Positions 4,283-61,047 of a stretch of DNA of 64,000 nucleotides are shown piece after piece. The first letter of the stretch is position 1; each line of letters opens with the position of its first letter. This stretch comes from Pontibacter flavimaris. Its GTDB lineage: Bacteria > Bacteroidota > Bacteroidia > Cytophagales > Hymenobacteraceae. The notes under the pieces were generated by a model. The model did not search any database. It was not told the DNA's origin and saw nothing but the letters and a program-made list of their open reading frames with translations. The translations under genes were made by a program, and so were the position numbers. The DNA lies in the NCBI RefSeq assembly GCF_001907195.1, contig NZ_LVWA01000005.1:434001-498000 (forward strand). Reading direction: 5' to 3'.

Positions 4283-4379
4283 TGTCATTCTGAAAGAAAC
4301 TTGGTAGATATAAGAGGGCCCCTACCCCCGGAGGTTAAGCTGATGCGGCTTGCCCACAAGATCCTTTCAGGATGACAAA
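4283..4379. repeat. Inverted pair of TGTCATCCTG-type repeat, MITE-like
   Basis: A degenerate forward copy (TGTCATTCTGAAAGAAACTT, from 4283) faces a good reverse copy (cttgcccacaagatcctttc then aggatgaca, 4351-4379). The outer ends both read TGTCA, so the 97-bp unit looks like a small element with terminal inverted repeats and no gene. The same sequence occurs at 13772-13802, 14130-14158, 60786-60810, 60959-60985 and 61019-61047. It lies between the sulfatase and GH95 genes. Confidence 0.7.
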
Positions 4380-9049: not shown

Positions 9050-9898
9050 CTATAACAGGCCCCGGAAGGAGCGTGGAGAGGCGCCGGTCTGGCCCTTAAA
9101 GAAGTTGGAGAAATACGCCAGGTCGTTGAAGCCAAGTTCGAAGGCGATCTCTTTAACCGACATATCGGAGGCGCGCAAGAGGCGCTTGGCCTCCAGCGTA
9201 ACGCGGTTGTGAATGAGGTACATGGCGGACACCTGCAAATGCTTTTTGCAAAGTATGTTCAGGTAGTTAGCCGAGATATGGAGCTTTTCAGCATAAAAAG
9301 CGACCGTTTTCTGTTCCTTAAAGTATAGATCCACCAGGCTGTGGTACTTCCATAACGCAGGCGCAGCCCGGTACACGGTCAGGATCTCATACTTGCTTTC
9401 TGCCTCGCGGCTTACCAATTGGGCGATCAGCCGGCTCCTTAAGTTGATGATGTTCCAGTCCAGGGGTTTTATACTTAGCTCGTCGCGTATGGCCCGGAAT
9501 TCGTATTGCAGCTTCCGAAAGACGTCGGGGGAAAGGCTGATGACCGGGTGCTTTTGATAGAGGGCGAACGAAAGCTCCAGAGAGGAGGAGAAGGTCTCAA
9601 AAACAGGCCGGCTGATCATCAGTTGATAGGCCAGCGTGTTTTTCCCCAGGCTCCAGCGGTGTACCTGGCCTGGCAGCAAGAGGTGTAACTGGTGGCTTTT
9701 CACGGGATACTCCTCAAAGTCGATGGCGTGTGTGCCGCTTCCCTGCTCGAACAAAAGCAGCATAAAAAAATCATGCTTGTGGGGCTTCTCAATGATCCTT
9801 TCCCCCTGTATTTCCAGGTACTGCAGGCCGTAGTCCGGTTGCAGAACCGGCTGGAACTCCTCTAAGCCAAGTATAGGAAAGTGGTCTGTTGCGGGCAC
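9050..9898 (-). CDS. AraC-family transcriptional regulator
   Basis: A 282-residue regulator with an N-terminal cupin-like sensing domain (HKHDFFMLLLFEQGSGTHAI, PGQVHRWSL) and a C-terminal AraC double helix-turn-helix. The DNA-binding region reads FYAEKLHISANYLNILCKK for the first helix-turn-helix and VKEIAFELGFNDLAYFSNFF for the second, which is the family signature. It is on the same strand as, and immediately upstream of, the amidohydrolase and ankyrin genes, so it may control them. No ligand can be deduced. Confidence 0.92.
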   Translation of the reverse strand: MPATDHFPILGLEEFQPVLQPDYGLQYLEIQGERIIEKPHKHDFFMLLLFEQGSGTHAIDFEEYPVKSHQLHLLLPGQVHRWSLGKNTLAYQLMISRPVFETFSSSLELSFALYQKHPVISLSPDVFRKLQYEFRAIRDELSIKPLDWNIINLRSRLIAQLVSREAESKYEILTVYRAAPALWKYHSLVDLYFKEQKTVAFYAEKLHISANYLNILCKKHLQVSAMYLIHNRVTLEAKRLLRASDMSVKEIAFELGFNDLAYFSNFFKGQTGASPRSFRGLL

Positions 9899-10431: not shown

Positions 10432-11787
10432 ATGCTTCTAAAAAGGTTTAAGAGTAAATTCTGCCTACTGCTGCTGTGCAGCGCCCTTATGTTAAACGGT
10501 TGCTTTAAAAAGAAGACCGGTGACGAAGAAACAGAGCCAGCCGCCGCCACTACCCCGGCACCGGAAAAAAAAGCCGAAGCTCCGGCAACTACAACAGCAA
10601 GCCCCGCTGCACCCGCTAAAGTAGATGTGAACGTGTACCTGGAGATCTCCAACGGGATGAAAGGTTTTATGCCCACCGCCGCTGCCGGTAAAGAAGCCAC
10701 CACGTTCCAGAATAACCTGCTAAAGCTGATTTCAGAGGTACAGGACGGGCGCTATGTGGCGGAAAAAGGCTTTTACCTGGCTAAAGAGGATGCCCGCAGC
10801 CATCCGGTGCTCGACAGCGTGTCCTACAATACGATGAAAAACTATATCGTTAGTGGTATAAAGGACGACGTGCGCGGAACGCCGCTTCCAGCCATGCTGC
10901 AGGCGATCGTGCAGAAATCCATAGATCAGGAGGCAGTCAGCATCATTATTTCCGATTTTATACATGGCCCCAGCGATCAGGGGCAGTTTATCTCGCTGGA
11001 CGCCGACATCCGCAGCAGCCTGCGCGAAGCCGAGCACCAGGGGCTGGCCGTAGCTATACTTGGTAATACATCGCCTTTCTATGGCACTTATCACCCGGCT
11101 GTAAAGAAACCGGAAGTCAGAAGAACGCTGAACGGGGAAGAGATACCCTATTATATCTGGGTGATCGGGCCACAGGAGCAGGTACAGGTGGTCACCAATA
11201 AAGTGCTGCGCAACCTGCCAAAGCAACAGGCATACTTCGGCTTTGAGTATGAGGCTATACCGTATTCAGCCTTATTGAAAGAAAAGCAATTCAAACCTGA
11301 AGGCGTGGTATACTGCAGCAGCCGTAATGCCGATCCGTGCACGGGAATAAACCTGCAGCCGGAAAAGAACGAGCCGGTGGAGTTTACTATCGGACTGGAC
11401 CTGAGCGGGCTGCCGCTGTCCATGCAAAGTATAGATTACCTGAAAAAGAACCTGAAAGTAAGCAGCACGGGCAGCCGGCCAAGTATCGTTTCGGTTACGG
11501 CCGCGGATGAAAGTATAAAAGCCACGCCGGGCCTGGCCAGGTATAGTCATTTTGTGCGCGTGCGCGTACCCGAGCTAACCGCGAATTCGGGTACCATATC
11601 CGTGCAGTTGCCGCAGGTAACGCCGACCTGGATCAATGCCTGGTCTACCGACAACGACAATAACCCGGCCGCGGCCCAGAAAAAGACTTACCAGTTAACC
11701 AAAATCATAGACGGCGTTCAGGCACTGTACCGCGACCAGAGCGATTTCGTATTCAAGGCAACCATACAATTTAACAAAGCAGACTAA
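10432..11787 (+). CDS. Lipoprotein with vWA-like domain
   Basis: A 451-residue lipoprotein, first gene of the tubulin/actin/stator set. The signal ends in a lipobox (LNGC), followed by an Ala/Pro/Thr/Lys linker (residues about 30-65). From residue about 67, VYLEISNGMKGFM, TPLPAML and IIISDFIHG occur in the order and spacing of the three metal-site motifs of von Willebrand A domains (DxSxS, T, D), with Glu in place of the first Asp. The last 150 residues look like a beta-rich domain. It ends 5 bp before the next gene, so an operon is likely. The protein should sit in the envelope and bind a partner. The vWA reading is from motifs only; no function is known to me. Confidence 0.72.
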   Translation: MLLKRFKSKFCLLLLCSALMLNGCFKKKTGDEETEPAAATTPAPEKKAEAPATTTASPAAPAKVDVNVYLEISNGMKGFMPTAAAGKEATTFQNNLLKLISEVQDGRYVAEKGFYLAKEDARSHPVLDSVSYNTMKNYIVSGIKDDVRGTPLPAMLQAIVQKSIDQEAVSIIISDFIHGPSDQGQFISLDADIRSSLREAEHQGLAVAILGNTSPFYGTYHPAVKKPEVRRTLNGEEIPYYIWVIGPQEQVQVVTNKVLRNLPKQQAYFGFEYEAIPYSALLKEKQFKPEGVVYCSSRNADPCTGINLQPEKNEPVEFTIGLDLSGLPLSMQSIDYLKKNLKVSSTGSRPSIVSVTAADESIKATPGLARYSHFVRVRVPELTANSGTISVQLPQVTPTWINAWSTDNDNNPAAAQKKTYQLTKIIDGVQALYRDQSDFVFKATIQFNKAD

Positions 11788-11792
11788 CACCC

Positions 11793-12206
11793 ATGATACA
11801 AAGCTTTTTCTCCGGACTCTACGAAATGGTGCTGGGGCGCCCTATCCCTGCCAACTTCACCAACGACTACCGCGAAGTGGTGTTCCCCAACACCGGACTG
11901 ATGCTGTTTATCATCACATTGGCCATGGTGATTGTATATTACTATGTGCTGAACCGCGTGATGAGCACCGGCCTGTATAAAACCCAGCACTGGGTGATGT
12001 TCCTGATCCTGAACGCCATCATCGCTTTCATTATCCCGATCACGCAGGTGACCGGCAACGACATCGAGACGCACTCTTATACTTATATGTTCGCTTTTGT
12101 GAACGTGGTATACAGTCTCATCCTTTTCTTCGTTTTCTCTATACTACTCAAGAGGGGCTCCGTGCAGGCATGGACAACCCCTATGAAATGGCCTAACAAA
12201 AAATAA
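11793..12206 (+). CDS. Small membrane protein with three predicted helices
   Basis: A 137-residue protein that I do not recognise. Three hydrophobic stretches are clear: LMLFIITLAMVIVYYYVL (about residues 36-53), WVMFLILNAIIAFIIPI (about 68-84) and FAFVNVVYSLILFFVFSILL (about 102-121). It ends in a short basic tail (KWPNKK). It sits 5 bp after the lipoprotein gene and 2 bp before the tubulin-like gene, so its product is probably a membrane subunit of the same machine, perhaps linking the cytoplasmic tubulin-like protein to the envelope. That role is an inference from position only. Confidence 0.8.
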   Translation: MIQSFFSGLYEMVLGRPIPANFTNDYREVVFPNTGLMLFIITLAMVIVYYYVLNRVMSTGLYKTQHWVMFLILNAIIAFIIPITQVTGNDIETHSYTYMFAFVNVVYSLILFFVFSILLKRGSVQAWTTPMKWPNKK

Positions 12207-12208
12207 CT

Positions 12209-13660
12209 ATGGCAAAGCTTTTTGTATTCGGAATTGGTGGCACCGGCTCCCGCGTGATCCGTTCGCTGGTCATGCTGATGGCGGCAGGTGTCAAAATTCA
12301 GAACTGTGATAAAATAGTACCGATCATCATCGATCCCGACACGCAGAACGGCGACATGAACCGTACCGTGGAATTGCTGAAAACCTACAAGCACATTCAC
12401 GACGCCCTGGGCCGCCGCGACGAAGGATTCTTCCATACCGACATCAGCACCCTGTCAAGTATAGCCGGCGATGGCACTTCCAAGATCCGCGACAGTTTCG
12501 TGTATGACTTTGGGGGGATCAACAAGCCGTTCAAAGATCATGTGGGCTATAACCAGCTCGATGTGGAAAGCCAGGCGCTGATCGACCTGCTGTTTACGCC
12601 GGAGAACCTGAACAACAGCCTGGACGTGGGTTTCCGCGGCAGCCCGAACGTGGGCAGCGTGGTGCTCAACGAGATCATCGATTCGCCTGAAATGCGCTTT
12701 TTTGCTTCCAACTTCCAGGCAGGCGACCGGATCTTTTTTGTGAGCTCAATCTTTGGTGGAACAGGCGCGGCCGGCTTCCCGCTGCTGCTCAAGAATTTCA
12801 AGGATTCGCGTACCTCGCTTCCGAACGCAGCTAGTTTGAACGCTGCCCTGACTGGAGCCATGGTGGTATTGCCATACTTCTCCCTGGAGCAACCGGCCGC
12901 CGGGGTAGAAGCGGACTTCATTGACTCCAACACCTTCACCACGAAGGCAAAAGACGCGCTTTCCTACTACCAGAACCACCTGAATGGCGTGAATGCGGTC
13001 TACTACATGGGCGACACGCCGGACAAGCCGATGGAAAACAACCCGGGCCGCGCCAGCCAGAAAAACGACGCGCATTTGGTGGAGTTACTGAGTGCATTGG
13101 CGATTGTGGACTTCATGGATTATTCGGACGACGAACTTTCCGGGAATGAGACTTTCCACGAATATGGTCTGCGCGAAGACGTAAGCAATGTGCACTTCTC
13201 TCATCTGGATAGTGAAACCCGCGACCGCATTGCCAAGCAGCTGATCCGCTTCCATTACTTCGAGCGCTATTACTCTACGCACTTGCCAGGCGATTCGCAG
13301 GCGGCCTATGCCAAAGGCGTGGACCTAACGAGCGCGCTTCGCAACGAGCCGGTTTTCCGGGAACTGAACAAATTCCTGACGAACCCGGAGTTTGGGTACC
13401 AGGCCTGGCTGCGAGAGTTAAGCCGAAAAGAAAGAACGTTTGCTGCGCTGAATTTGAACGAAATGGACTTCAACCGCATGGTATCGGACAAGCAGATCGA
13501 AACAGGGTTCCTGAACAAAGGCATCCACCAGGGCTCCTTCGTAAAAGAGCTAAACCGTGCTTCCGAATCCATCTCCGACCGCGACGCTTTCAAGGCCACC
13601 ATTAAGGCTTTTGAAACGGCTACAAATACGCTGGTGGAGGAGAAGCTGAAGTATAGTTAG
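12209..13660 (+). CDS. Tubulin/FtsZ-like GTPase-fold protein
   Basis: A 483-residue cytoplasmic protein with the two glycine motifs of the tubulin/FtsZ superfamily. The N-terminal loop FGIGGTGSRVIRSL is at residues 5-18, and the tubulin signature-type loop SSIFGGTGAAG is at about residues 179-189. IVPIIIDPDTQNGDMN after the first motif fits the second strand of the nucleotide fold. The C-terminal half has no obvious named domain. It resembles the divergent Tubulin_2-like proteins of bacteria more than FtsZ itself. It follows the small membrane gene by 2 bp. It may bind GTP and assemble, but catalytic residues of the T7 loop could not be assigned by eye. A vWA lipoprotein upstream and an actin-like protein downstream make it part of an unusual set. 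Confidence 0.78.
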   Translation: MAKLFVFGIGGTGSRVIRSLVMLMAAGVKIQNCDKIVPIIIDPDTQNGDMNRTVELLKTYKHIHDALGRRDEGFFHTDISTLSSIAGDGTSKIRDSFVYDFGGINKPFKDHVGYNQLDVESQALIDLLFTPENLNNSLDVGFRGSPNVGSVVLNEIIDSPEMRFFASNFQAGDRIFFVSSIFGGTGAAGFPLLLKNFKDSRTSLPNAASLNAALTGAMVVLPYFSLEQPAAGVEADFIDSNTFTTKAKDALSYYQNHLNGVNAVYYMGDTPDKPMENNPGRASQKNDAHLVELLSALAIVDFMDYSDDELSGNETFHEYGLREDVSNVHFSHLDSETRDRIAKQLIRFHYFERYYSTHLPGDSQAAYAKGVDLTSALRNEPVFRELNKFLTNPEFGYQAWLRELSRKERTFAALNLNEMDFNRMVSDKQIETGFLNKGIHQGSFVKELNRASESISDRDAFKATIKAFETATNTLVEEKLKYS

Positions 13661-13697
13661 GGACCTCTCCGGCCCTCTCCTAAAAAAGGAAGAGGAG

Positions 13698-13744
13698 CTT
13701 CTCTTCGCTCTTCTGGATTTGCAACCCGTGAGAGCAAAGAGAAG
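13698..13744. repeat. Imperfect inverted repeat after the tubulin-like gene
   Basis: CTTCTCTTCGCTCT at 13698-13711 pairs with AGAGCAAAGAGAAG at 13731-13744 (13 of 14 bp, 19-nt loop). It is preceded by a C/T-rich stretch (13664-13690) similar to other short repetitive sequences of this genome. It may act as a terminator or mRNA end signal, but it has no clear T run. It lies just outside the repeat-flanked GIY-YIG unit. Confidence 0.55.
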
Positions 13745-13771
13745 CTAAAGTATAACAAGTTTTTTTCTCTT

Positions 13772-14158
13772 TGTCATCCTGTAAGGATCTTGTGGGCAAG
13801 AAGCGAAAGCTGCAGCTATGAAAAGCCACAACTATTTCGTTTACATCATTACAAACCCAGGTAAAACAGTGCTCTATACTGGTGTAACGAACGATTTGCA
13901 GGCCAGAGTAGAACAGCACAAAGCAAACCGGGGAAAGCCGGAAACATTTGCCGGACGCTACTATTGCTTTAAGTTTCTATACTTTGAACGTTATACTTAT
14001 GTACAACATGCTATAGAGCGTGAGAAAGAGATTAAGTTAATGGGTAGAGAAGATAAACTTCAACTGATAAAGAAAGAGAATCCTGCACTGATGTTTATGG
14101 ATGTGTGGGAATAGTAAGGCTTACTGGTTCTTGCCCACAAGATCCTTTCAGGATGACA
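13772..14158. mobile_element. 387-bp unit with ~30-bp terminal inverted repeats carrying a GIY-YIG gene
   Basis: The left end (TGTCATCCTGTAAGGATCTT and on to GTGGGCAAGAA, 13772-13802) and the right end (the same sequence reversed, 14128-14158) match over about 30 bp with one mismatch. The outer tips read TGTCA. The enclosed gene is the GIY-YIG nuclease. The unit sits between the tubulin-like and actin-like genes and splits an otherwise tight gene set. No target-site duplication is visible at the outer edges (ctctt on the left, tcaga on the right). Related repeat pairs without a gene are at 4283-4379 and 60959-61047. Mobility is an inference. Confidence 0.6.
13818..14114 (+). CDS. GIY-YIG nuclease domain protein
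   Basis: A 98-residue single-domain GIY-YIG protein of the small UvrC/URI-like group. The signature is present as YFVYIIT (GIY position) and VLYTGVTND (YIG position), followed by the conserved Arg in LQARVEQH. The metal-binding Glu lies in EREKEIKLMGR. Such stand-alone proteins cleave DNA or are of unknown role. Here it is enclosed by terminal inverted repeats of a family seen elsewhere in the window without a gene, reminiscent of the association between REP sequences and RAYT transposases. A role in moving the repeats is a hypothesis. It uses a more AT-rich codon set than the two large genes around it, consistent with insertion. Confidence 0.9.
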   Translation: MKSHNYFVYIITNPGKTVLYTGVTNDLQARVEQHKANRGKPETFAGRYYCFKFLYFERYTYVQHAIEREKEIKLMGREDKLQLIKKENPALMFMDVWE

Positions 14159-14268
14159 TCAGAGTGGGCAGATTAATTTTAAAAGTGCGGCCAGAGTCCG
14201 CGAAATAGCTCACACTCGCGGGACGCGAACGAGGGTTTATAATCATACTTAAAGTAAAAGAAACAAAC

Positions 14269-17200
14269 ATGCCGAAAGTACTTCGTCTACATAAAACCGG
14301 ATCTAACGTGGAAGGCTGGGCTAAAACCAGCCAGATCACGAGCACCGAGATAAAAGATATCACCGATGGCGCCGGTGGCAGAGCCCTGAAAATAAACGCT
14401 TCTATCCCGACGCCGTTTGCCCGCATGCACCTGTTCGAAACTGCTTTCGATTTTGTGAAGCGTGGCGTGGCAGGCTCCAACAACAACACCATTTATCACA
14501 GGTTCGTGACCCATTTCTGGGATCTGTGGGAGCTACTCTACAACCATCAGAGCTACGCGCAGGCTGGCAACAAGATCATCATCCGTCGCTGGAACAAGCA
14601 CCAGCAGCTGGGGACCATGCAGGCGAACCCGAACACGAATCTGCTGGGCCGCACGCTGGAGTTGTTCATGAACGACAGCCGCTTCCAGGGGATCGAGGAT
14701 ATTTTCCTGATCTTCTTCGAGTCGACCAACAGCCGCGGCGACCGCCACATGCAGCTCATCGGCGGCACTTCACCGCTGACCTTCCTGTTTGTAGCGCCGA
14801 ATGTGCAGCCGCTAAGTATAAACCGCGCGCAGAACATTGGCACCTACTTCGACCATAACTATGTGTCGCTGGAGGCCCGGGAGCCGGATTTCAGGGAGTA
14901 TGTGCACAAGCTGTTTGTGTCGAACCCGGCGATGATCCAGGCTTTCCCGGCCGTATACAATGCCTTGGACGAGAACCTGCTGCGAAGTATAAACATGGCA
15001 GGTGCGGTTGGGCAGGGAGCGATTGCCTCGCAGTACCTGCAGCTGGTGGATTTCCAGCAGAACCCGGTACACGTGGGCCACATCAACTTCCTGGTGAAGA
15101 AAGACCAGACCGCCGTGACCAGCAGCGATCTGTTCATCCGCCCGACGCATACCGGCTTTGCTGGCGAAAGGCCCATTGTTTTAAAGCCTGAGCTGCGGCT
15201 GGCTCCGGATGTGAAGTATGTCAACAACCTGGCCTGGCCGGTGAATACCGTAGTGGGCTATGCGGATGAAAAGCCATTGGAGAACCGTTCGCTGCCGGGC
15301 GTGGGGTTCAACTATCCCTACTTAACGATCAACGACCTGTTGCAGGAAACGCTGGTGCAGGTACCGTACGAGGTAAACTCGGATCGTTTCTACAGCGGCA
15401 CCGTGGTATACCAACCGGGCGTAACGGAGAAATCTTTTAACTACCTCTTGCCGATCACGCCTTTATACTTTGATTTCTTCTCGCCGGAGGATCTGGCCAA
15501 TCACCTGACCTTCCACATCGACGTGAACCACGTGCGCGTAACCCTGCGCGTGCCAACCGAAAAAGGAAATGTGGTGTACGAGCGCAGCTATTACGACAAT
15601 CCGCTCAACTCCAAAGACGCGCACGGCAACGTGATCCCCGAGAAAGGCCATATCCTCAAATCCAGGATTGGTTTGGGCGTGTTCCCGTTCTACAAGTTCA
15701 CCGACGCGGTGCAGTACAACGACTTCTACAAAGTGATGCTGGTGGATGAGGACATCGATCCGCTGCTGGTGAACAAAAACCATTCGCTCAGTTTCTTTGC
15801 GGGTGGCAAGCCCCTAGAGGCAGGCGGCGGTATCATTTCTGCCACCGCGCACCGCAGAACTAAAAAGAGCAACAGCAGCGCGGGCAGCACCTATTACGAG
15901 ATCCGCGGCACGCACTTCGATTTTGCGGAGTTCAGGCACGAGGGAGTGGATTTTACAGGCAAGGCGCTAATCGTACCGAAGTTCGAAGAAAAACAGCAGG
16001 GGATTCATAACTTCACTTTTGCCATCGACTTCGGTACCTCGAATACACACATTGCCTATACTTCGGGCACTAACCAGCCGCCGCGCGAGTTCTCCATCAC
16101 GGCTAACGACCAGCAATTGGTGATGCTAAACAAGCCTTCGGAAGATCCCGCTTTAACGGATTACCAGCGCTTCCACAAGCGTGGTTTCGGCAGGTTGTTT
16201 GCCGTAGAGACCTTGCTCAAGCGCGAGTTTATACCTTTGATCATCGGCTCCGGAGGCTCACTGTATAACTTCCCAACCCGTACGGCAACTTGCGAGTCCA
16301 TCGATTTTGAGAACCAGATCACCAACCTTTTTGGCAACATCAACATCGGTTTCTCCATCAACACGGAAGGCACGCACCAGGAACAGTACAAGCAGACCTA
16401 CCACACCGACCTGAAGTGGAGCGAGACGCTGACCAATGCCGGCAAGCGCCGCATCGAAGCCTTCTTCACGGAGATCATGCTGCTGATCAAGAATAAAGTG
16501 GTGCTGAATAACGGCAACGTGGCCAGCACCAAGATCGTGTGGTTTGCGCCGCTGAGCTTTGATGAGTATTCGCGCAACATGTTCCAGAATGTGTGGGATA
16601 CGGTATACAATAACGTGTTCAAGAACGGACGAAATACGGTCTGCATCACGGAGTCTGTAGCGCCATTCTACTTCCTGTCCCGAACCGGTGCCGTGGTGCC
16701 CAGCCAGGATGAGAACCTGATCAACGTGGACATTGGCGGCGGTACGACCGACGTGCTGTTGTTTACCAATCGCAAGCCTTCGCACAGCTCCTCGTTCCGC
16801 TTTGCCGGTAACGATTTGTGGGGCGATGGCTTTGCCACCGTGAAGACGAGCAAAGACAATGGCCTGTTGCAGTATGGCGTAGACCACGTGCTGCGCATTC
16901 CGCTAACGGAAGAAGGACGCGAATACCGCAAGTTCCTGGAAACGGCGCTGGATAACCCGGATTTTAATTCCGCCGACATCAGCTCGCTCTTGTTCAGCTA
17001 CGACAAAGAACTGAACTACAGCTCACAGCTCCTGCAGGCGCGGCAGCTGCGGTTGATGTTTTACCTGCACTTTGGCGCGCTGATGTACCACCTGGCGCAG
17101 CTGGTGCAGCAACTGGACGTGAAAATGCCACGCTACATTTCGTTCAGCGGCCGGGGTAGTTTATACATCAAGCTGCTGAGCGCCGGCAACAACCTCTCGA

Positions 17201-17733
17201 ATGTGGAGCGTTATGCCAAAGCGATCTTCCAGAAGGTAACAGGGCAGGAGCCGCCAGCAAACTTCAAGCTGGTGCTGGTCGATAATCCAAAGCAGGTAAC
17301 GGCCAACGGCGGCGCGATGGCGCTGGAAGGAACCGACCTGAACGACCTGACCAACATCCCGATCATGAAGCCGACCGGTTCGGCCAACATCGAAGACGCT
17401 TTGACGCCGGTAACCAAAACGCAGATCACGGGCGAGTTGCGCCAGGAAGTGATGGATAACGTGATGAACTGCTTGCAACTGCTGCTGGACGATCCGGACG
17501 TGTCGCCGCTCATGCGCTCGATGGGCGTGGAGGTGGACCCGATGCGGGTACTGGAGTTTATGCGCGTGAACCTGCAGGACAGCTATACCATGATTCTGGA
17601 GGACACGGTGCGTGGCCTCACTGACCGCGAGCAGCTGCACGAGACCATGTTCTTCATGCCGCTGAAACAATCGCTATACTTGCTGTCGAAAGAACTGTAT
17701 AGGCAGCAGGCGCAGGTAAGTGCTATTTCCTAA
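14269..17733 (+). CDS. Large protein with C-terminal actin/Hsp70-like ATPase domain
   Basis: 1154 residues. The C-terminal half is an actin/Hsp70/sugar kinase-fold ATPase: phosphate-1 motif AIDFGTSNTH (585-594), phosphate-2 motif NVDIGGGTTD (819-828), a connect-type region ITESVAPFYFLS, and adenosine-type motif ISFSGRGSLY. The N-terminal about 580 residues (for example IPTPFARMHLFETAFDFV, and a beta-rich part ending near residue 575) match no family I can name with confidence. No signal peptide or membrane segment is seen, so it is cytoplasmic. It lies downstream of the tubulin-like gene, separated by the GIY-YIG unit, and upstream of the stator genes. It may be a regulatory ATPase or filament-forming component; the partner is unknown. 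Confidence 0.82.
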   Translation: MPKVLRLHKTGSNVEGWAKTSQITSTEIKDITDGAGGRALKINASIPTPFARMHLFETAFDFVKRGVAGSNNNTIYHRFVTHFWDLWELLYNHQSYAQAGNKIIIRRWNKHQQLGTMQANPNTNLLGRTLELFMNDSRFQGIEDIFLIFFESTNSRGDRHMQLIGGTSPLTFLFVAPNVQPLSINRAQNIGTYFDHNYVSLEAREPDFREYVHKLFVSNPAMIQAFPAVYNALDENLLRSINMAGAVGQGAIASQYLQLVDFQQNPVHVGHINFLVKKDQTAVTSSDLFIRPTHTGFAGERPIVLKPELRLAPDVKYVNNLAWPVNTVVGYADEKPLENRSLPGVGFNYPYLTINDLLQETLVQVPYEVNSDRFYSGTVVYQPGVTEKSFNYLLPITPLYFDFFSPEDLANHLTFHIDVNHVRVTLRVPTEKGNVVYERSYYDNPLNSKDAHGNVIPEKGHILKSRIGLGVFPFYKFTDAVQYNDFYKVMLVDEDIDPLLVNKNHSLSFFAGGKPLEAGGGIISATAHRRTKKSNSSAGSTYYEIRGTHFDFAEFRHEGVDFTGKALIVPKFEEKQQGIHNFTFAIDFGTSNTHIAYTSGTNQPPREFSITANDQQLVMLNKPSEDPALTDYQRFHKRGFGRLFAVETLLKREFIPLIIGSGGSLYNFPTRTATCESIDFENQITNLFGNINIGFSINTEGTHQEQYKQTYHTDLKWSETLTNAGKRRIEAFFTEIMLLIKNKVVLNNGNVASTKIVWFAPLSFDEYSRNMFQNVWDTVYNNVFKNGRNTVCITESVAPFYFLSRTGAVVPSQDENLINVDIGGGTTDVLLFTNRKPSHSSSFRFAGNDLWGDGFATVKTSKDNGLLQYGVDHVLRIPLTEEGREYRKFLETALDNPDFNSADISSLLFSYDKELNYSSQLLQARQLRLMFYLHFGALMYHLAQLVQQLDVKMPRYISFSGRGSLYIKLLSAGNNLSNVERYAKAIFQKVTGQEPPANFKLVLVDNPKQVTANGGAMALEGTDLNDLTNIPIMKPTGSANIEDALTPVTKTQITGELRQEVMDNVMNCLQLLLDDPDVSPLMRSMGVEVDPMRVLEFMRVNLQDSYTMILEDTVRGLTDREQLHETMFFMPLKQSLYLLSKELYRQQAQVSAIS

Positions 17734-17886
17734 AGTATAATCCACTACCTTTAACAAGTTTTTGCATCCCGAGTGGTGGGAGAGATCTGAAGGATGGTTC
17801 AAATATAAATCCAATCAGGTTTCTCGCACATCTCGGGAGGCAGCAATAATCAACATTTATTCAAATTCAAAGTATAATTCTGGCTC

Positions 17887-18762
17887 ATGAACACAATTGC
17901 CATCATCATAAGTATCATCGCGCTGGTAGGTGCCGGTTTTGCCTTTTTAAGGGCCGTTAGTGCCTACAACATGCTCACCAAGCGCATCAACAAGCTCAAA
18001 GACCAAAATGCTGACCTGGAGAGCCGCCTCAGAAGGCTGGAGGGAAATGCCAGCCGTGGCAACAGGCCGGCCAGCGAGCCGGGCGAAGGCGGCAGGCAGA
18101 AGAAGCAGCGACCGGAGCAACAGCGTCAGGAACAGCAGCCGGAGCAGCGCCAAAGACAAAGAGAGCGGCAGCAGCCTCAGCCCCAGCAGGAGGAGGAGGC
18201 AAACGCCAACGAACAGGCGCAACAGCCGAAGCAGAAACGCAGAAGGGATAAGCGCAGGAGAGACGAACCGACGGACAGAACCAGCGGTAGCGGCGAGGAG
18301 CTGGCAAAAGAGGAGCAAAGGCCTCGCACGAACGCTGTAAGGCTGGAGATTGCCGGCGGCGACCTTTTGGACGAACTAGAAATGGCAGCCTCTGCCACGC
18401 CGCCACCGGTTGAGCCGGAGGCCATGCCGGAGGTTGCGCCAGACACAGGCACCCGCTTTGCTATTATCCCGGAGGACGGTGTGATACGGCAGCACCAGTT
18501 GCAGCAGCACCCCGACTCCGACAGTTACATTGAAATGGACATCCCGGCCGACGGCAGCGGCACGACCCGCTACCGCTTTAACCTGTCGGGCAACCATGCC
18601 TTTGTTATTGCGCAGGGGATAGACCGGCTGGAAAACGCCTTTGACTTTGAGAAGCCGTCGAACCGCATGGTGAGCCGGGTGGTTCTGCAGGGCGACGGCA
18701 TCCTTGTAAAAGTGAACAACGGCTGGAGAATCCAGGAAAAAGCACGCATCGATTTCAGATAA
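17887..18762 (+). CDS. Membrane-anchored coiled-coil protein with Q/R-rich linker
   Basis: A 291-residue protein I do not recognise. Residues 1-24 form one membrane helix (IAIIISIIALVGAGFAFL). A coiled coil follows (about 31-55, LTKRINKLKDQNADLESRL), then a long Gln/Arg/Glu/Pro-rich low-complexity linker (about 60-150). A compact C-terminal domain (about 190-291) contains FAIIPEDGVIRQ and YRFNLSGNHAFVI. It ends 8 bp before the MotA-like gene, so the three genes from here to 21186 are almost certainly one transcript. The design (anchor, flexible spacer, folded end) suggests a tether between the membrane stator and a cytoplasmic partner such as the actin-like protein. This is inferred from architecture. 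Confidence 0.8.
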   Translation: MNTIAIIISIIALVGAGFAFLRAVSAYNMLTKRINKLKDQNADLESRLRRLEGNASRGNRPASEPGEGGRQKKQRPEQQRQEQQPEQRQRQRERQQPQPQQEEEANANEQAQQPKQKRRRDKRRRDEPTDRTSGSGEELAKEEQRPRTNAVRLEIAGGDLLDELEMAASATPPPVEPEAMPEVAPDTGTRFAIIPEDGVIRQHQLQQHPDSDSYIEMDIPADGSGTTRYRFNLSGNHAFVIAQGIDRLENAFDFEKPSNRMVSRVVLQGDGILVKVNNGWRIQEKARIDFR

Positions 18763-18770
18763 CCCCTTAG

Positions 18771-20519
18771 ATGGAAGGCATATTTATACTTGAGGCTGTA
18801 CTTATACTCATCATACTTGGCTACCAGTTGTACGTGTACAAGGGGAACAAGCAGAAGATCAAAAGTATAGCCGGGCTCTATCCTTCCGAAGACCAGCTAC
18901 ACCTCAGGGAGCAGCTGCTGGAAGCTGAAAGTATAAAAAAGCCTGCCGAACCGAAAGCTGACGGGCAAGTATGGGAAGCCATACTTGCCGGCAGGCCTTT
19001 CCGGGAGTATACGCCCTCCAACCCGGTAATTAAAAAAGTGGTGTCTGCGGAAAACAGCTTGCTGCAGATAGAGGCCAAAGGAGGTCCCGTGCCCAGCTAC
19101 ACCATAGCCCGCGAGAAACTGGAGAAGCTATTTGCCGGCGGCAACATCCATATGGTGGAAGGCGACCCGGACGCGCTGATCACCACCGTCGCCTCGGGCG
19201 GAAGGGGAGCTGCCACCATCGACCTGATCGAGGTACAGCATCCTTCCGAAACGTTTGCGAGCATTATCAAGAGCACCAACCAGTACCTGAGGCGCAACAA
19301 AGGGGCCGCCGCGGATTTCGATATCCTGAAAGACGTGTCGGAGCGCTATGCGGAGGCCATGGACAACGAGGTGCAGTCTACCATCGCCACGCCGCTTTAC
19401 ATCGGCCTGCTGGGCACTTTTTCCGGGGTGATTATCGGCCTGTCGAGCCTCATTTGGTCTGGTTTGGGTGGAGAGGAGGCAGGTTCCTTCATCACGGACC
19501 AGAACATCCCCTCCTTCCTGTTTGGCGTGCTGATCGCCATGTCGGGCAGCTTTTTAGGGCTGCTGCTGACCTTGCTCGGGAACAACGCCCTGAAGAATGC
19601 GCGCAGCCTCCGTGACCGTCACAAGAACGGCTATTACACTTTCCTGCAAACCAACCTGCTGCCCAAGCTCAACTCGGATATGGCCGCCAGCCTGGGCAAT
19701 CTCAAATCGGTGCTGGATTCGTTTAACAAGGATTTCCTGGACAAGGTGCTCGGCTTCCGGCCTATTGTGGACACCCTGACGGAGAACATCAGCACGCAGA
19801 AAGAATTTATTCAGAAGCTGGATGAGATCGGCTTCACGCAGATGGCCAACGCTAACCTGCAGGTGTTCGATAAGATGAAGGAGAGCGAGCAGCTGTTCAG
19901 GAACTTCATGCAGTACCAGATAGCTTTGAACGAGTCGGTGCAGAAGGGAGCGGAGCTGACGCATACCATCAGCGACGTGCTTGGCCGCCTGACCAGTCTG
20001 CAGGAGGGCTTTGACAAGGTGCCGGGGTACCTGCAGAAACACGACGAATCGATCCAGCGGCAGGTGAATTTCTTTGGGCAGCACGAGCGCGAGTTAAATG
20101 ATATCGGATCGCGCATCGAACAGTATTTTGATAAGGCCGCCCTTCGGCTAACGGATCTGATGGAAGCCCGTTTGCAGCACCAGGAGCGGGACGCGCAGAA
20201 CGCTTATGAAAAGTGGCAGGAGCATTTCAGAAGGCTCAACGAAGACAACGTGTACCAGCGCATTGTGGAGTACATGCGCCCTTTCGAGCGCCTGAGCCAG
20301 CAGCAGGGAAGTATGAGCAACGCGCATCAGCAACTGTCGGGGGAGATACGGCAGACGAACGAGCGCCTGCTGCAGAAGCTGGAAGCCGACACCGCCGTGC
20401 AGCAGCAACTGCTGCAGCAACTGCAAACGCTGAACATGCACATGGCCAAAAGTATGGAGCCCGGACCGCTGAAGTCTGTACTGGATAAGCTTTTCGGCGG
20501 CGGCCAGCACAGAAGGTAA
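18771..20519 (+). CDS. MotA/TolQ/ExbB-like (ZorA-like) channel subunit with long coiled-coil tail
   Basis: A 582-residue inner-membrane protein. It has an N-terminal helix (residues 3-20) and two central helices: PLYIGLLGTFSGVIIGL (208-224), carrying the GLLGT motif of the MotA/TolQ/ExbB family, and IPSFLFGVLIAMSGSFLGLL (246-265). Residues about 300-570 are a long Gln/Glu/Leu-rich coiled-coil tail, much longer than in ExbB or TolQ and resembling the tail of Zorya ZorA. With the following MotB-like gene it would form an ion-driven 5:2-type stator. The ion and the driven partner are unknown. It is 8 bp after the anchored coiled-coil gene and 10 bp before its MotB partner. Confidence 0.85.
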   Translation: MEGIFILEAVLILIILGYQLYVYKGNKQKIKSIAGLYPSEDQLHLREQLLEAESIKKPAEPKADGQVWEAILAGRPFREYTPSNPVIKKVVSAENSLLQIEAKGGPVPSYTIAREKLEKLFAGGNIHMVEGDPDALITTVASGGRGAATIDLIEVQHPSETFASIIKSTNQYLRRNKGAAADFDILKDVSERYAEAMDNEVQSTIATPLYIGLLGTFSGVIIGLSSLIWSGLGGEEAGSFITDQNIPSFLFGVLIAMSGSFLGLLLTLLGNNALKNARSLRDRHKNGYYTFLQTNLLPKLNSDMAASLGNLKSVLDSFNKDFLDKVLGFRPIVDTLTENISTQKEFIQKLDEIGFTQMANANLQVFDKMKESEQLFRNFMQYQIALNESVQKGAELTHTISDVLGRLTSLQEGFDKVPGYLQKHDESIQRQVNFFGQHERELNDIGSRIEQYFDKAALRLTDLMEARLQHQERDAQNAYEKWQEHFRRLNEDNVYQRIVEYMRPFERLSQQQGSMSNAHQQLSGEIRQTNERLLQKLEADTAVQQQLLQQLQTLNMHMAKSMEPGPLKSVLDKLFGGGQHRR

Positions 20520-20529
20520 CCCACAAAGT

Positions 20530-21186
20530 ATGAGCAAGGAGAACAGGGATTTTTTCTGGCCCAGCTACGTCGATTTGATGACGGTGCTCTTCCTGGTGAT
20601 GCTGGTGCTCTTTGTGCTGAGCTTCAAACTGTTTCAGGACAAGGACCAGGAGAATCGGGAGAATATTGCCCGCCTGCAGGTAGAGGTGCAGGAAAAGCGC
20701 AAGCTCGATGAGATAAAAGCTGCCCTTGCCCGCCTGGATGACGACTACTTTCAGTACAACGAGAAGTATAAACGCCACGAACTGCTGGTGGATGTGCTTT
20801 TTGAGCAGAGTAGCGCCGTGATACCGCAGCGGTCAAGAGTTCCGCTCCGCAAGGCCGGCGAGAACTTGAGCCAGGTGATCAACTCCATCGAGGACAAGGA
20901 TGTGAAATACCTGATCGTGATCGATGGCCGCGCCGCCAGTTTCCCCAAAGGTGACCCCCGCAATGTTTCGCAGCGGGAGTACGCCCTGCAGCTGAGCTAT
21001 GAACGCGCCCTGGCCCTGCTCGATTTCTGGCAAAGCCAGGGCATCAAATTCCCCAAGGACAGGATAGAGCTGATCGCTGCCGGCAGCGGCTTCGAGGGCG
21101 CCGGCCGCAAGGGCGACATCCGCGACCGAAGGTTTGTGATCCAGATCCTCCCGAAAGTAGGGACGCTGGAAAAGGAGATGGAGTAG
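20530..21186 (+). CDS. MotB/OmpA-like (ZorB-like) stator subunit
   Basis: A 218-residue protein with the MotB plan. A short cytoplasmic N-terminus and one membrane helix (SYVDLMTVLFLVMLVLFVL) hold an Asp at residue 15 in the position of the ion-binding Asp of MotB. A periplasmic linker follows, then an OmpA-like peptidoglycan-binding domain (NVSQREYALQLSYERALALL, then AAGSGFEG and DRRFVIQI). It pairs with the MotA-like protein 10 bp upstream. The OmpA domain should fix the stator to the cell wall, so a partner on the cytoplasmic side would be rotated or pulled. It is the last gene of the set, followed by inverted AAGTATA motifs and a terminator. Confidence 0.88.
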   Translation: MSKENRDFFWPSYVDLMTVLFLVMLVLFVLSFKLFQDKDQENRENIARLQVEVQEKRKLDEIKAALARLDDDYFQYNEKYKRHELLVDVLFEQSSAVIPQRSRVPLRKAGENLSQVINSIEDKDVKYLIVIDGRAASFPKGDPRNVSQREYALQLSYERALALLDFWQSQGIKFPKDRIELIAAGSGFEGAGRKGDIRDRRFVIQILPKVGTLEKEME

Positions 21187-21266: not shown

Positions 21267-21304
21267 AAAAAGACCAGGCCTTACGCAGGTACCTGGTCTT
21301 TTTG
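21267..21304. terminator. Bidirectional terminator between convergent genes
   Basis: AAAAGACCAGG (21268-21278) pairs with CCTGGTCTTTT (21292-21302) around a 13-nt loop. T-rich tracts follow in both directions. It ends the stator operon on the plus strand. Its stem overlaps the last codons of the symporter gene on the minus strand, whose stop is at 21281-21283. Confidence 0.8.
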
Positions 21305-22714
21305 CTCTTCCTGGTCCTGAGTGATCTCCGGCATACTGGTTTCCACCAATCCAACCTCCGGCTGCGGGTCAAACTCGCCTTCCCAGCGGGCTACCACGGC
21401 GGTGGCCAGGCAGTTACCCGTCACGTTGATCGAGGTGCGCGCCATGTCCATCAGCTCATCAATGCCAAGTATGGCGAACACGGGCCACACCGGCAGGTTG
21501 AACGAGGCCACCGTGCCCAAAAGTATAACCAGCGAGGCACGCGGTACCCCGGCCACTCCCTTGCTTGTCAGCATCAGCGTGAATACCATCACCAGCTGCT
21601 GCTCCCAGGTCAGGTCAATACCCGCTGCCTGCGCCACAAACACCGAGGCCAGCGCCAGGTATAAGGTCGTGCCGTCCAGGTTAAAGCTGTAGCCGGTAGG
21701 CATCACAAAGGCTACGATGCGGCGCGGCACGCCCAGTTTCTCCATCTCCTCCATGGCGCGCGGCAGGGCCGCCTCCGAGCTGGTAGTGGCAAAGGCAATG
21801 GAAACCGGACCTGAGATGGCCTTCAGGAAGCGGCGGATCGGCACACGGGCGATCAGGGCCACCGGCAGCAGCACCAGCACCGCGAAGGCCAGCAGCGCCA
21901 CGTACAATGTAGCCAGCAACTGGAAAAGGTTCAGCAGGATGCCAAAGCCCATGTGGCCCACCGTGTAGGCAATGGCCGCGCCCACGCCCACCGGCGCAAA
22001 GTACATGATGATGTTGGTGAACTTGAACATCGTCTCGGAGAGGCTCTCGCAGAAGTCCAGCATAGGGCGGCGCTTTTTCTCCGACACCATGGCCAGGGCA
22101 ATGGCGAACAGCACACTGAACACCACGATCTGCAGCACCTGCCCCTCCGCAATGGATTTGGCGATGTTCTCCGGGAACACGTGCAGGATGATATCGGCAG
22201 TGGTTTGGGCAGGCACCGCCTGTATCTCCTCGTGGCTTTGCGCCAGCCCGGCATCAATGCCCACGCCGGCCTTGCTCAGGTTAATGGCCGCCAACCCGAT
22301 GAACAGCGCCAGCGTCGTCACCACCTCAAAGTATACAATGGCTTTCCAGCCCATGCTGCCCACCTGCTTCAGGTTGGCGTGGCCGGCAATCCCCACCACC
22401 AGCGTGGCAAAGATCAGCGGGGCGATGATCGTCTTGATCAGCTTGAGGAACACCTTGCTGAGCACATTCAGGTTAACGGCGAAGGCCGGGAAGTCGTAAC
22501 CAATCTCAGCGCCCACCACCATACTAATCAGGATCCAGGTGGTGAGGGAGCGTTTCTGCAGGCCGTAGCCCAGCAGCACGACGATACCGGCCCAGCGCAC
22601 GGCCATCAGCGCCTCGGCGGGCAGGGAGATAAAACCATACTGCTGCAGCACGGTAAGTATAGCCGCCAGGGTAATGCAGATAAGTGTGGCCAGGGGTAAG
22701 TAGGGTATTCTCAT
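21281..22714 (-). CDS. Dicarboxylate/glutamate:cation symporter (DAACS family)
   Basis: A 477-residue inner-membrane carrier of the GltP/DctA family, importing C4-dicarboxylates or glutamate/aspartate with Na+ or H+. Several family motifs are visible: serine-rich hairpin ATTSSEAALPRAMEEM, the substrate-binding TGYSFNLDGTTLYLALASVF, TSKGVAGVPRAS in the second hairpin, and the C-terminal INVTGNCLATAVVARWEGEF. At least eight hydrophobic stretches are present. The C-terminus adds a polar tail of about 30 residues. It is monocistronic and convergent with the stator operon, sharing its terminator. The exact substrate is not resolved. Confidence 0.93.
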   Translation of the reverse strand: MRIPYLPLATLICITLAAILTVLQQYGFISLPAEALMAVRWAGIVVLLGYGLQKRSLTTWILISMVVGAEIGYDFPAFAVNLNVLSKVFLKLIKTIIAPLIFATLVVGIAGHANLKQVGSMGWKAIVYFEVVTTLALFIGLAAINLSKAGVGIDAGLAQSHEEIQAVPAQTTADIILHVFPENIAKSIAEGQVLQIVVFSVLFAIALAMVSEKKRRPMLDFCESLSETMFKFTNIIMYFAPVGVGAAIAYTVGHMGFGILLNLFQLLATLYVALLAFAVLVLLPVALIARVPIRRFLKAISGPVSIAFATTSSEAALPRAMEEMEKLGVPRRIVAFVMPTGYSFNLDGTTLYLALASVFVAQAAGIDLTWEQQLVMVFTLMLTSKGVAGVPRASLVILLGTVASFNLPVWPVFAILGIDELMDMARTSINVTGNCLATAVVARWEGEFDPQPEVGLVETSMPEITQDQEEQKDQVPA

Positions 22715-23678: not shown

Positions 23679-25232
23679 ATGGAGAAGCCTATAGCGCCTA
23701 TCAACCTCAGCATCGATAAAAACTACGACTCTGAGTTTTGCGGAAGTATACCCTTGCACCTGATAAACCTGGTGCAGCCGCATGGTGTGCTGCTGGTGCT
23801 GGATAAGGAGGGGCTGCGCGTGCTGCAAACCAGCGCGAACACGGAGGACTTCCTTTCCGTTTCCCCGGAAGCCCTGCTGGGGCAGCCGCTGTCCGGTTTC
23901 CTGCAGCCGGGGCAGTACAGCGACGTCCTGGACAAGATCAACGCGCAGGACAGCCAGGACAAGATACCGTTTATGCTCAACTTCAGCGTGCAGGGAAAAG
24001 AGCTTGCCTTTTCTGCCCTGGTGCTGCCGCAGCAGGACTATGTGCTGATGGAGCTGGAGAAGAACGTGCCCGCCCCGGAGGAGGCCTTTGTGCGCCTCTA
24101 CCAGCATATTAAGTACATCACCACGCTGATGAAGCAGGCCGGTACCTGCTCTGAAATTGCCCAGCGCGCCGCCGTAGAGCTGAAGAAGTTTTCCGGGTTC
24201 GACAAAGTGCTGGTGTACCAGTTCGACCCGCAGTGGAACGGCATCGTGATAGCGCAGGCGAAGGAAGAGGACATGGCCGATTACCTGGGGCTGCGCTTCC
24301 CGGCCTCGGATGTGCCCCGGCAGGCCCGCGAGTTATACTTTAAAACCCCCTACCGCCTCATCCCCACACGCGAATACACCCCGGTGCGGCTCACACCCAT
24401 TATCAACCCGCTCACGCAGCGCTTCACCGACCTGTCGGAGAGCAACCTGCGCAGTGTGGCCAGGGTGCACCTGGAGTATATGGCTAACATGAACATCAGG
24501 GCCTCCATGTCGCTGCCCATCATCATCAATAACAAGCTTTGGGGCCTGATCTCGTGCCACCACAAAACGGACAAGCACCCGGGGTACGAGATGCGCTCTG
24601 CCATGGAGCTGCTCTCGGGTATACTTTCGGCCCAACTGGAGGCCAGGCAGCGGGAGGAGCACATGGCGCTGCGGGTGCACCTGCGCAGCATCCACGTGAA
24701 ACTGGTGGAGCAGCTCTATACCACGGCGCACTTTGCGGAAGGCCTGCTGGATGGGATGTCGAGTATACAGGAGCTGCTGTCGCTTTCAGGGGCCGCGGTG
24801 GTGTACGAAGGCAACGTCTGGACGAGCGGCAGCACACCCGGCAGCCAGGAGGTGAAAGAACTGGCCTCATGGTTGCGCCGTAATAAGAGCGGCGGACTTT
24901 TCGCCACCGACAAGCTCGCGCAGGATTACCCGCACAGCAAGCCGTATGCTGAGGTGGCCAGTGGGCTTGTGTCGCTGCCGATCAACGCCGAACAGGGCGA
25001 GTTTATACTTGGTTTCAGGCCGGAGGTGATCCAAAGCGTGGCCTGGGGGGGCAACCCGGGAGATGCCATCCGGTTGGAGCCCGACGGGAAGACCTACCAC
25101 CCGCGCAATTCCTTTGCCACTTACCAGGAAACAGTGAGACAAACGGCGCTCCCCTGGCAGTTGGAAGAGCTGGAAGCAGCCGAAACTCTGCGAAATGCCG
25201 TATTAGAGAAAATATTGAAGGAGCGGTACTAA
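23679..25232 (+). CDS. Bacteriophytochrome photosensory module without kinase
   Basis: 517 residues with the phytochrome core PAS-GAF-PHY and no output domain. Cys21 in EFCGSIPLHLINLVQPHG aligns with the biliverdin-binding Cys of bacteriophytochromes. The GAF domain has LRFPASDVPRQARELYF (the DIP-type motif that holds the chromophore), then RSVARVHLEYMANMNIRASM and LISCHH. The PHY tongue has the PRxSF-type motif HPRNSF. It should covalently bind biliverdin and sense red/far-red light in the cytoplasm. As it lacks a histidine kinase, its signal must pass to a partner. The gene 74 bp downstream encodes a CheB-CheR-PAS-kinase protein and is the obvious candidate. No haem oxygenase gene is in the window. 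Confidence 0.93.
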   Translation: MEKPIAPINLSIDKNYDSEFCGSIPLHLINLVQPHGVLLVLDKEGLRVLQTSANTEDFLSVSPEALLGQPLSGFLQPGQYSDVLDKINAQDSQDKIPFMLNFSVQGKELAFSALVLPQQDYVLMELEKNVPAPEEAFVRLYQHIKYITTLMKQAGTCSEIAQRAAVELKKFSGFDKVLVYQFDPQWNGIVIAQAKEEDMADYLGLRFPASDVPRQARELYFKTPYRLIPTREYTPVRLTPIINPLTQRFTDLSESNLRSVARVHLEYMANMNIRASMSLPIIINNKLWGLISCHHKTDKHPGYEMRSAMELLSGILSAQLEARQREEHMALRVHLRSIHVKLVEQLYTTAHFAEGLLDGMSSIQELLSLSGAAVVYEGNVWTSGSTPGSQEVKELASWLRRNKSGGLFATDKLAQDYPHSKPYAEVASGLVSLPINAEQGEFILGFRPEVIQSVAWGGNPGDAIRLEPDGKTYHPRNSFATYQETVRQTALPWQLEELEAAETLRNAVLEKILKERY

Positions 25233-25306
25233 CTAATCCATCAAAAGTAAAGGATACAACAGCAGCTACTGCCAAGAAAGAGCGGCCCGGAACACGAATA
25301 GCATAC

Positions 25307-60715: not shown

Positions 60716-61047
60716 AAAGCAGGCGAGCCTTTTGGGTTCGCCTGTCTTAGTTTTCGGACATCTGTACAAGCTAAATAGTCCATTTTGTCATCCTGAAAAG
60801 ATCTTTTGCCATTGTTGGTGTTTTCACCAACAATTTGTACTGCAGCAGGCTGTTTTCTTGCAGGTGATAACACCTGCAAGGGCTAGAAAAAACAGGTGAA
60901 CCGAGAGGCTTGCCTGTTTTTGTTTTACGGATATCTTCACAAGTAAAGCAGTATATTTTGTCATCCTGAAAGGACCTTGTGGGCGAACTAAATATATGAT
61001 GAGCATGCGCCACTACTGCTTGCTACCAAGATTCTTCCAGAATGACA
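60716..61047. repeat. Diverged tandem repeat with two perfect hairpins and TGTCATCCTG repeats
   Basis: Two diverged units (about 60720-60810 and 60889-60985) align end to end: a CAGG(C/T)GA hairpin, CGGA(C/T)ATCTT and ACAAG, then TTTTGTCATCCTGAAA. Between them are two adjacent perfect 10-bp hairpins with 4-nt loops: ATTGTTGGTG-TTTT-CACCAACAAT (60811-60834), and CTTGCAGGTG-ATAA with its complement (60857-60880). The second unit's TGTCATCCTG copy (60959) faces an inverted copy (61019-61047). No gene is supported in this 390-bp gap. Confidence 0.7.
60720..60750 (+). terminator. menB: menB terminator
   Basis: CAGGCGAGCC (60720-60729) and GGTTCGCCTG (60735-60744) form a 10-bp stem (one G-T pair) with loop TTTTG, followed by TCTTAGTTTTC. 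Sequence around it is repeated 170 bp downstream in diverged form. Confidence 0.75.

Follow-up and report, generated by a model that had tools for sequence, protein, structure and literature searches.

A candidate envelope machine in Pontibacter: a conserved seven-gene set with tubulin-like and actin-like proteins and a ZorAB-like stator

What might a bacterium do with a tubulin-like and an actin-like protein encoded next to an ion-driven stator? This question is raised by seven plus-strand genes which occupy positions 10432–21186 of a 64,000-nucleotide stretch of the Pontibacter flavimaris genome (assembly GCF_001907195.1, contig NZ_LVWA01000005.1, positions 434,001–498,000; referred to here as the window, with all positions counted from its first letter) and which we call lipo, tm3, tub, act, cc, motA and motB in 5'–3' order. 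A preliminary description of this DNA had grouped the same seven genes and noted that four of the six joints between them were only 2–10 bp long, and both the coordinates and the spacing are borne out by the open reading frame (ORF) positions and the measured gaps (5, 2, 608, 153, 8 and 10 bp in gene order). We find that the seven genes are inherited together as one set, far beyond what chance would produce, and our tentative reading is that they form one transferable envelope-spanning machine which would mount a Zorya-like induced response to envelope disturbance.

Conservation of the set and its component proteins

A scan of named genomes returned at least 546 relatives, 80 of which we fetched, and synteny was counted over 63 related loci with enough surrounding sequence (most of these come from the Hymenobacteraceae and are hence non-independent). 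The vWA, tub and act genes were found in 63/63 loci, always on the same strand and in a fixed order, and the remaining genes in most (motA in 57, tm3 in 53, motB in 52 and cc in 51). Over a dozen genera share the gene order, with relatives in Pontibacter, Rufibacter, Sabulibacter, Adhaeribacter, Hymenobacter, Solirubrum, Nafulsella, Pedobacter, Kordia, Christiangramia, Salinimicrobium, Maribacter, Spirosoma, Arcicella and Leyella, among others. In a phylum-wide sample of 395 Bacteroidota genomes, tub-like genes were present in 13 by protein search and in the identical 13 by profile, and act-like genes in ten, each with an adjoining tub-like gene. Incomplete sets also occur, with act missing from one locus (L028) and both act missing and a stop in tub in another (L036). 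The two long joints of 608 and 153 bp could be taken to mean that unrelated genes have simply come to lie together, but we give this practically no credence and consider chance neighbours ruled out by the synteny, as the three core genes are ordered alike in every locus and the rest in most, while the flanks differ.

The first gene, lipo (10432–11787, +), encodes a 451-amino acid (aa) protein with a lipobox (...LMLNGC24) followed by a single vWA domain (residues 62–436 approximately). The AlphaFold2 model, built with 40 homologues, has a pLDDT of 87.9, and the best match in a structure search has a Z-score of 7.9 (3.6 Å over 150 residues); among the structural matches listed, those we recognised are vWA-fold proteins (Rpn10, Ku80, TFIIH p34, Sec23, CMG2 and NorD). 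A MIDAS-like motif is formed by E71-x-S73-x-G75-M76 plus D175, and column counts give E/D71, S/T73, M76 and D175 in 40/40 sequences each. The protein deviates from the DxSxS consensus, with the first Asp replaced by Glu in 37/40 and Gly at the third position in 16/40. No significant Pfam match was obtained for lipo, the first PDB profile search with the vWA family found nothing, and the fold comes solely from the model. We nonetheless regard the modelled vWA fold with MIDAS-type residues as firm, because the list of matches is uniform and both E/D-x-S/T-x-S/G-M and D175 are conserved; a Z-score near 8 would be modest if taken alone. We note that one other locus (L040) has a vWA protein with the canonical DxSxSM motif, and here a MotB/ZorB-like gene (12533–13198 of that locus) lies upstream of the vWA gene with no MotA-family match downstream.

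The third gene, tub (12209–13660, +), encodes a 483-aa protein which we assign to the tubulin-type GTPases, probably in or beside the FtsZl1/Tubulin_2 family. It carries a T1-type loop (G10-G11-T12-G13) and a T4-type loop (F182-G-G-T-G-A187), and the GGTG loop residues are invariant in 29/29 sequences. PF00091 matches with an E-value of 1.2e-4, aligning residues 140–200 around the T4 loop, and PF13809 (Tubulin_2) with 0.004, at 16.8 bits against a cut-off of 27; the latter profile matches 15/17 members of the tub family (best E-value 3e-9), and found nothing at E ≤ 0.01 when the window's genome was scanned. All 14 of the weak PDB profile matches to tub are FtsZ proteins or tubulins. A profile–profile comparison with FtsZ aligned the T4 region alone (probability 1%) and added no information. 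It should be noted that the genome also contains a second FtsZ gene (G000:C2:368717-369670), whose open frame spans roughly 800 aa, besides the normal FtsZ, and that a similar one is found in another genome of our set (G017).

The fourth gene, act (14269–17733, +), encodes a giant actin/Hsp70-like protein of 1154 aa consisting of an N-terminal region (1–578), an ASKHA domain (579–1030) and a helical C-terminus. The AlphaFold2 model (pLDDT 83.4) matches ParM (Z 12.4), MreB (Z 11.9) and DnaK (Z 11.6), and MreB is also recovered by the PDB profile search (1.1e-5); for residues 1–578 the structure search was uninformative, and we do not propose a new fold there. D587, K716, E795 and D821 are invariant in 36/36 sequences, and these we take to correspond by position to Hsp70 D10, K71, E175 and D199. 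The two-lobed fold and the phosphate-1, phosphate-2 and adenosine motifs that define ASKHA proteins are all found in act, and on the model residues 579–1030 are an Hsp70/MreB-type ATPase domain with the expected catalytic residues all present.

The two other small proteins are predicted to be membrane-associated. Three hydrophobic segments are evident in tm3 (11793–12206, +; 137 aa), and cc (17887–18762, +; 291 aa) is a coiled-coil/low-complexity protein anchored by one N-terminal hydrophobic segment and ending in a conserved C-terminal domain. Outside Pontibacter, cc is mostly longer with a secreted-type N-terminus, and a single homologous family fills this slot across 22 diverse loci. Here and for the other parts, the membrane topology and lipoprotein sorting are sequence-based predictions.

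The stator and comparison with known systems

The last two genes appear to encode a MotA/MotB-type stator closest to ZorA/ZorB. The motA product (18771–20519, +; 582 aa) has a first transmembrane (TM) segment at residues 1–24, TM2–3 at about 204–271 and then a tail of about 300 aa, as well as the signature TPLYxGLLGTF...AMxGSFxGLLLT. The PDB profile match is to a ZorA-type chain (8vvn_C, E-value 0.006, over the TM region), and the PADLOC ZorA model matches several motA family members (best 5e-10), with the window's own protein matching weakly. The motB product (20530–21186, +; 218 aa) has one TM segment with D15, which is invariant in 19/19 sequences as is R159, and an OmpA-like wall-binding domain (PF00691, 4.4e-6, above cut-off). 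It matches PADLOC ZorB1 with an E-value of 5.5e-11, and the best PDB match of the family profile is ZorB-type (8vvn_B, 3.6e-11, residues 4–210), followed by 8qyd (2.4e-6).

The vWA-like lipoprotein, the tubulin-like protein with GGTG motifs, the actin/Hsp70-like ATPase and the long-tailed MotAB/ZorAB-like stator of the preliminary description have each gained support from these models, profiles and invariant residues (for tub, from sequence families and loops). That description had also listed two outcomes which would count against it, and neither appeared: homologues co-occur widely outside this strain, and modelling gave a vWA fold for lipo and an ASKHA fold for act.

Zorya defence depends on the ion path, on wall binding and on the tail of ZorA alike (PMC11890865). 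The set resembles Zorya in its inner-membrane MotA/MotB-type stator, of which the B subunit has ZorB as its closest relative, and in an invariant TM aspartate, an OmpA-like domain and a long A-subunit tail of a length comparable to that of ZorA. Unlike Zorya, it lacks ZorC, the ZorD helicase and the ZorE nuclease, as had been noticed earlier and as agrees with the absence of any PADLOC match to ZorC/D/E at E ≤ 1 among eight proteins of the locus, and has a vWA lipoprotein and the tubulin-like and actin-like proteins instead. The opposite-strand genes flanking the set, araC (9050–9898) and a dicarboxylate symporter-like gene (21281–22714), leave no room for additional members. As ZorC/D/E are absent, the set is not a Zorya system and membership can be ruled out.

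Stators of the MotAB type also power gliding, type 9 secretion and Ton-dependent uptake (PMC11890865), and this, together with the cytoskeletal folds, might suggest a motor for motility, adhesion or transport, in which the stator would move a track or transporter that spans the envelope and the filaments would serve as rails. We think this improbable, as the set is patchy among related species, the stator is closest to ZorAB, and the unit contains no outer-membrane receptor, adhesin or SprB/GldLM-type gene.

The preliminary description knew of no named system with this arrangement, a view which is only partly supported. In 2010, Makarova and Koonin predicted operons that combine FtsZl1 with genes for vWA and OmpA proteins, the members including a Bacteroides (PMC2875224, main text), and in 2020 Kaur et al. 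described conflict systems centred on GTPases in which tubulin, HSP70 and vWA genes occur (PMC7159879). In its main text, the 2010 account has a Tubulin_2-type GTPase (PF13809) with vWA, OmpA-domain and membrane proteins in a patchy bacterial distribution, much as we see here. Our set differs from it in including a giant ATPase of the ASKHA type and a complete stator resembling ZorAB, in lacking any P-loop GTPase or protein kinase gene, and in the length of tub, which is 483 aa compared with 1051 aa for the FtsZl1 type member. The same main text mentions no MotA, MotB or Hsp70, and actins as background only. Tubulin_2 proteins were excluded from a 2023 study as divergent (PMC9871819). The systems of Kaur et al. 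likewise combine tubulin and vWA genes, with HSP70 in other members, and pair oligomerising parts with variable effectors (PMC7159879). Unlike our set, they are defined by DO-GTPase/GAP1 proteins, keep the tubulin and HSP70 themes separate, are found mainly in Firmicutes and Actinobacteria, and have no stator described (PMC7159879); we found no Pfam or NCBIfam match to TRAFAC DO-GTPase or GAP1 at E ≤ 1 in eight proteins of the locus. In the literature we searched (with PMC2875224 represented by its main text), the actin partner, the ZorAB-like stator, the hydrolase cargo described below and the whole set are undescribed. Given the 2010 prediction for Tubulin_2/FtsZl1 operons, the set is of a kind already foreseen and is not categorically new, and it is the actin partner, stator and cargo that are added here.

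The FtsZl1 connection brings with it a further explanation, in which a constitutive membrane-remodelling or vesicle machine would mould the inner membrane by means of tubulin-like and actin-like filaments, with the stator as power source or anchor. The PF13809 match across the tub family is consistent with this, as is the association of FtsZl1 genes with vWA and OmpA-family genes, from which membrane remodelling was predicted in the main text of the 2010 paper (PMC2875224). We nevertheless consider it rather unlikely, as the set is lacking in half of the Pontibacter species and in some 97% of the Bacteroidota sampled, and the transfer signal and hydrolase cargo are more in keeping with an accessory trait. 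Remodelling had already been questioned by one of the reviewers of the 2010 paper.

Evidence for transfer of the set, and its variable neighbours

The set occurs in 25/50 Pontibacter species, and its flanks vary among them with the seven-gene core unchanged. The act tree is rejected by the gyrB data and vice versa. In an analysis of 14 species, the gyrB tree is compatible with the gltP data (p = 0.26), unlike the act tree, which these data reject (p = 2.5e-6), and the act data reject both the gyrB and gltP trees; the gyrB data also reject both other trees, indicating that the core genes themselves are imperfectly concordant. With flanks that vary and a gene tree at odds with those of core genes, the set behaves as a transferable unit. 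The GC content of the set (0.537) is that of its surroundings, and any transfer would thus have been among similar hosts, or old. Genomes lacking the set do not have araC next to gltP, so that the joining of the flanks at an empty site cannot be used as proof; the araC–amidohydrolase pair is present without the set in several species. No act relatives were found in phage records, one was found in a plasmid collection on a large replicon (Prevotella F0039), and five were found in viral contigs, where at least one belongs to an element with integrase and relaxase genes. One viral contig (IMGVR_UViG_3300034171_000222, 815–11439) has lipo–tm3–tub–act plus one more gene, lacks the stator genes, and abuts baseplate-like phage genes on the opposite strand.

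Not every gene within the set is conserved to the same degree. Within Pontibacter, tub and act share 91–98% identity with the window's proteins, compared with 64–84% for lipo, 51–95% for cc and 74–94% for motA, and this contrast between divergent lipo, cc and motA and stable tub and act would be expected if the outward parts track a changing target.

The genes next to the core are also variable. Many loci outside the Hymenobacteraceae have, 3' of the stator, a short lipoprotein-like gene which encodes a trypsin-like or retropepsin-like domain, and these loci often add an SNase or an endonuclease/exonuclease/phosphatase (EEP) gene (hydrolases are found in L109, L112, L114, L116, L120, L121, L122, L124 and L225). 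The hydrolases are apparently exchangeable secreted cargo around a fixed core, which resembles the organisation of conflict systems (PMC7159879). Spirosoma-type loci lack the stator pair, and in some a protein of 433–471 aa follows. One Pontibacter carries a second, diverged copy of the whole set (L225, G439:C1:420000-439900), in which the actin-like protein is 30% identical and which adjoins McrBC and TerY.

TerD-like genes lie 3' of tub–act in three distant relatives (L039, L038 and L260), and in the last (IMGVR_UViG_2857903310_000004) tub–act, a TPR protein and TerD-like genes come immediately after genes for a tyrosine integrase and a MobA-type relaxase. Together with TerY beside L225 and the vWA proteins common to both, this likeness to TerD/TerY systems might mean that the set is a Ter-type stress-response machine (for chemical, metal or phage stress) with a shared tubulin/actin/vWA core and TerD or the stator as alternative outputs. 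We find this unlikely, as the window's set and the Pontibacter and Hymenobacter stator loci themselves have neither TerD nor TerY, and the link is confined to distant relatives.

The 608-bp gap between tub and act contains an additional plus-strand ORF (13818–14114), overlooked in the preliminary description, which otherwise had the gene content right. It encodes a 98-aa GIY-YIG nuclease (PF01541, 2.9e-14) with a GC content of 0.39 compared with 0.54, and sits between the arms of a 31-bp inverted repeat (13772–13802 and 14128–14158, unstranded) belonging to a palindrome family that is dispersed over more than 20 other sites in the genome, among them about 4349–4379 and 60957–60984 of the window. 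Among six other Pontibacter loci compared, it is found only as remnants in two and is otherwise absent; we therefore regard it as a strain-level insert and not a component, and its role as an effector of the set can be ruled out. The whole of 13772–14158 looks like a REP-associated nuclease element. Rfam and tRNA scans of the window gave no matches, and a promoter scan was near shuffle level (with a sigma-70-type model ill-suited to Bacteroidota). Elsewhere in the window, a bacteriophytochrome-like gene is followed by one which, by sequence, would encode a 1366-aa CheB–CheR–PAS–histidine kinase-like fusion (23679–29407).

A possible induced response and its meaning

In our tentative reading of the set as an inducible machine, the trigger would be a disturbance of the envelope, probably through invasion or stress, which lipo and the wall-binding domain of MotB would sense outside the inner membrane, with tub and act lying inside the cell. 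Ion flow through the stator (five MotA and two MotB subunits) would then turn or re-position the long MotA tail, and this movement would load or release tub and act to assemble at the membrane. In several lineages, the lipoproteins whose genes directly follow the set, with their protease or nuclease domains, might form part of the output. An anti-phage role for the set is possible.

Several observations weigh against this proposal. Defence systems usually cluster, but a search for defence islands which covered 125 proteins encoded near the set in 27 loci turned up clear known defence genes at a single locus (L225), and the idea of such an association was dropped; the flanks of the set are mostly ordinary genes. 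The Pontibacter and most Hymenobacter copies lack a recognisable effector, and the rapid divergence of lipo and cc could equally reflect a loss of constraint.

The bolder suggestion, that a wall-anchored, ion-driven rotary stator is mechanically coupled through its cytoplasmic tail to both tubulin-type and actin-type NTPases in a motor-driven immune or stress organelle, a new class of machine with secreted hydrolases or TerD as exchangeable outputs, we regard as doubtful. The set links two questions, namely the role of the orphan Tubulin_2/FtsZl1 proteins and how ZorAB-type stators relay a signal from the wall inward, and the compact unit with its defined point mutants (MotB D15, act D587/K716/E795/D821 and the tub GGTG loops) makes both testable. 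If the stator does drive both NTPases, this would be a machine which couples ion flow to tubulin-type and actin-type switches.
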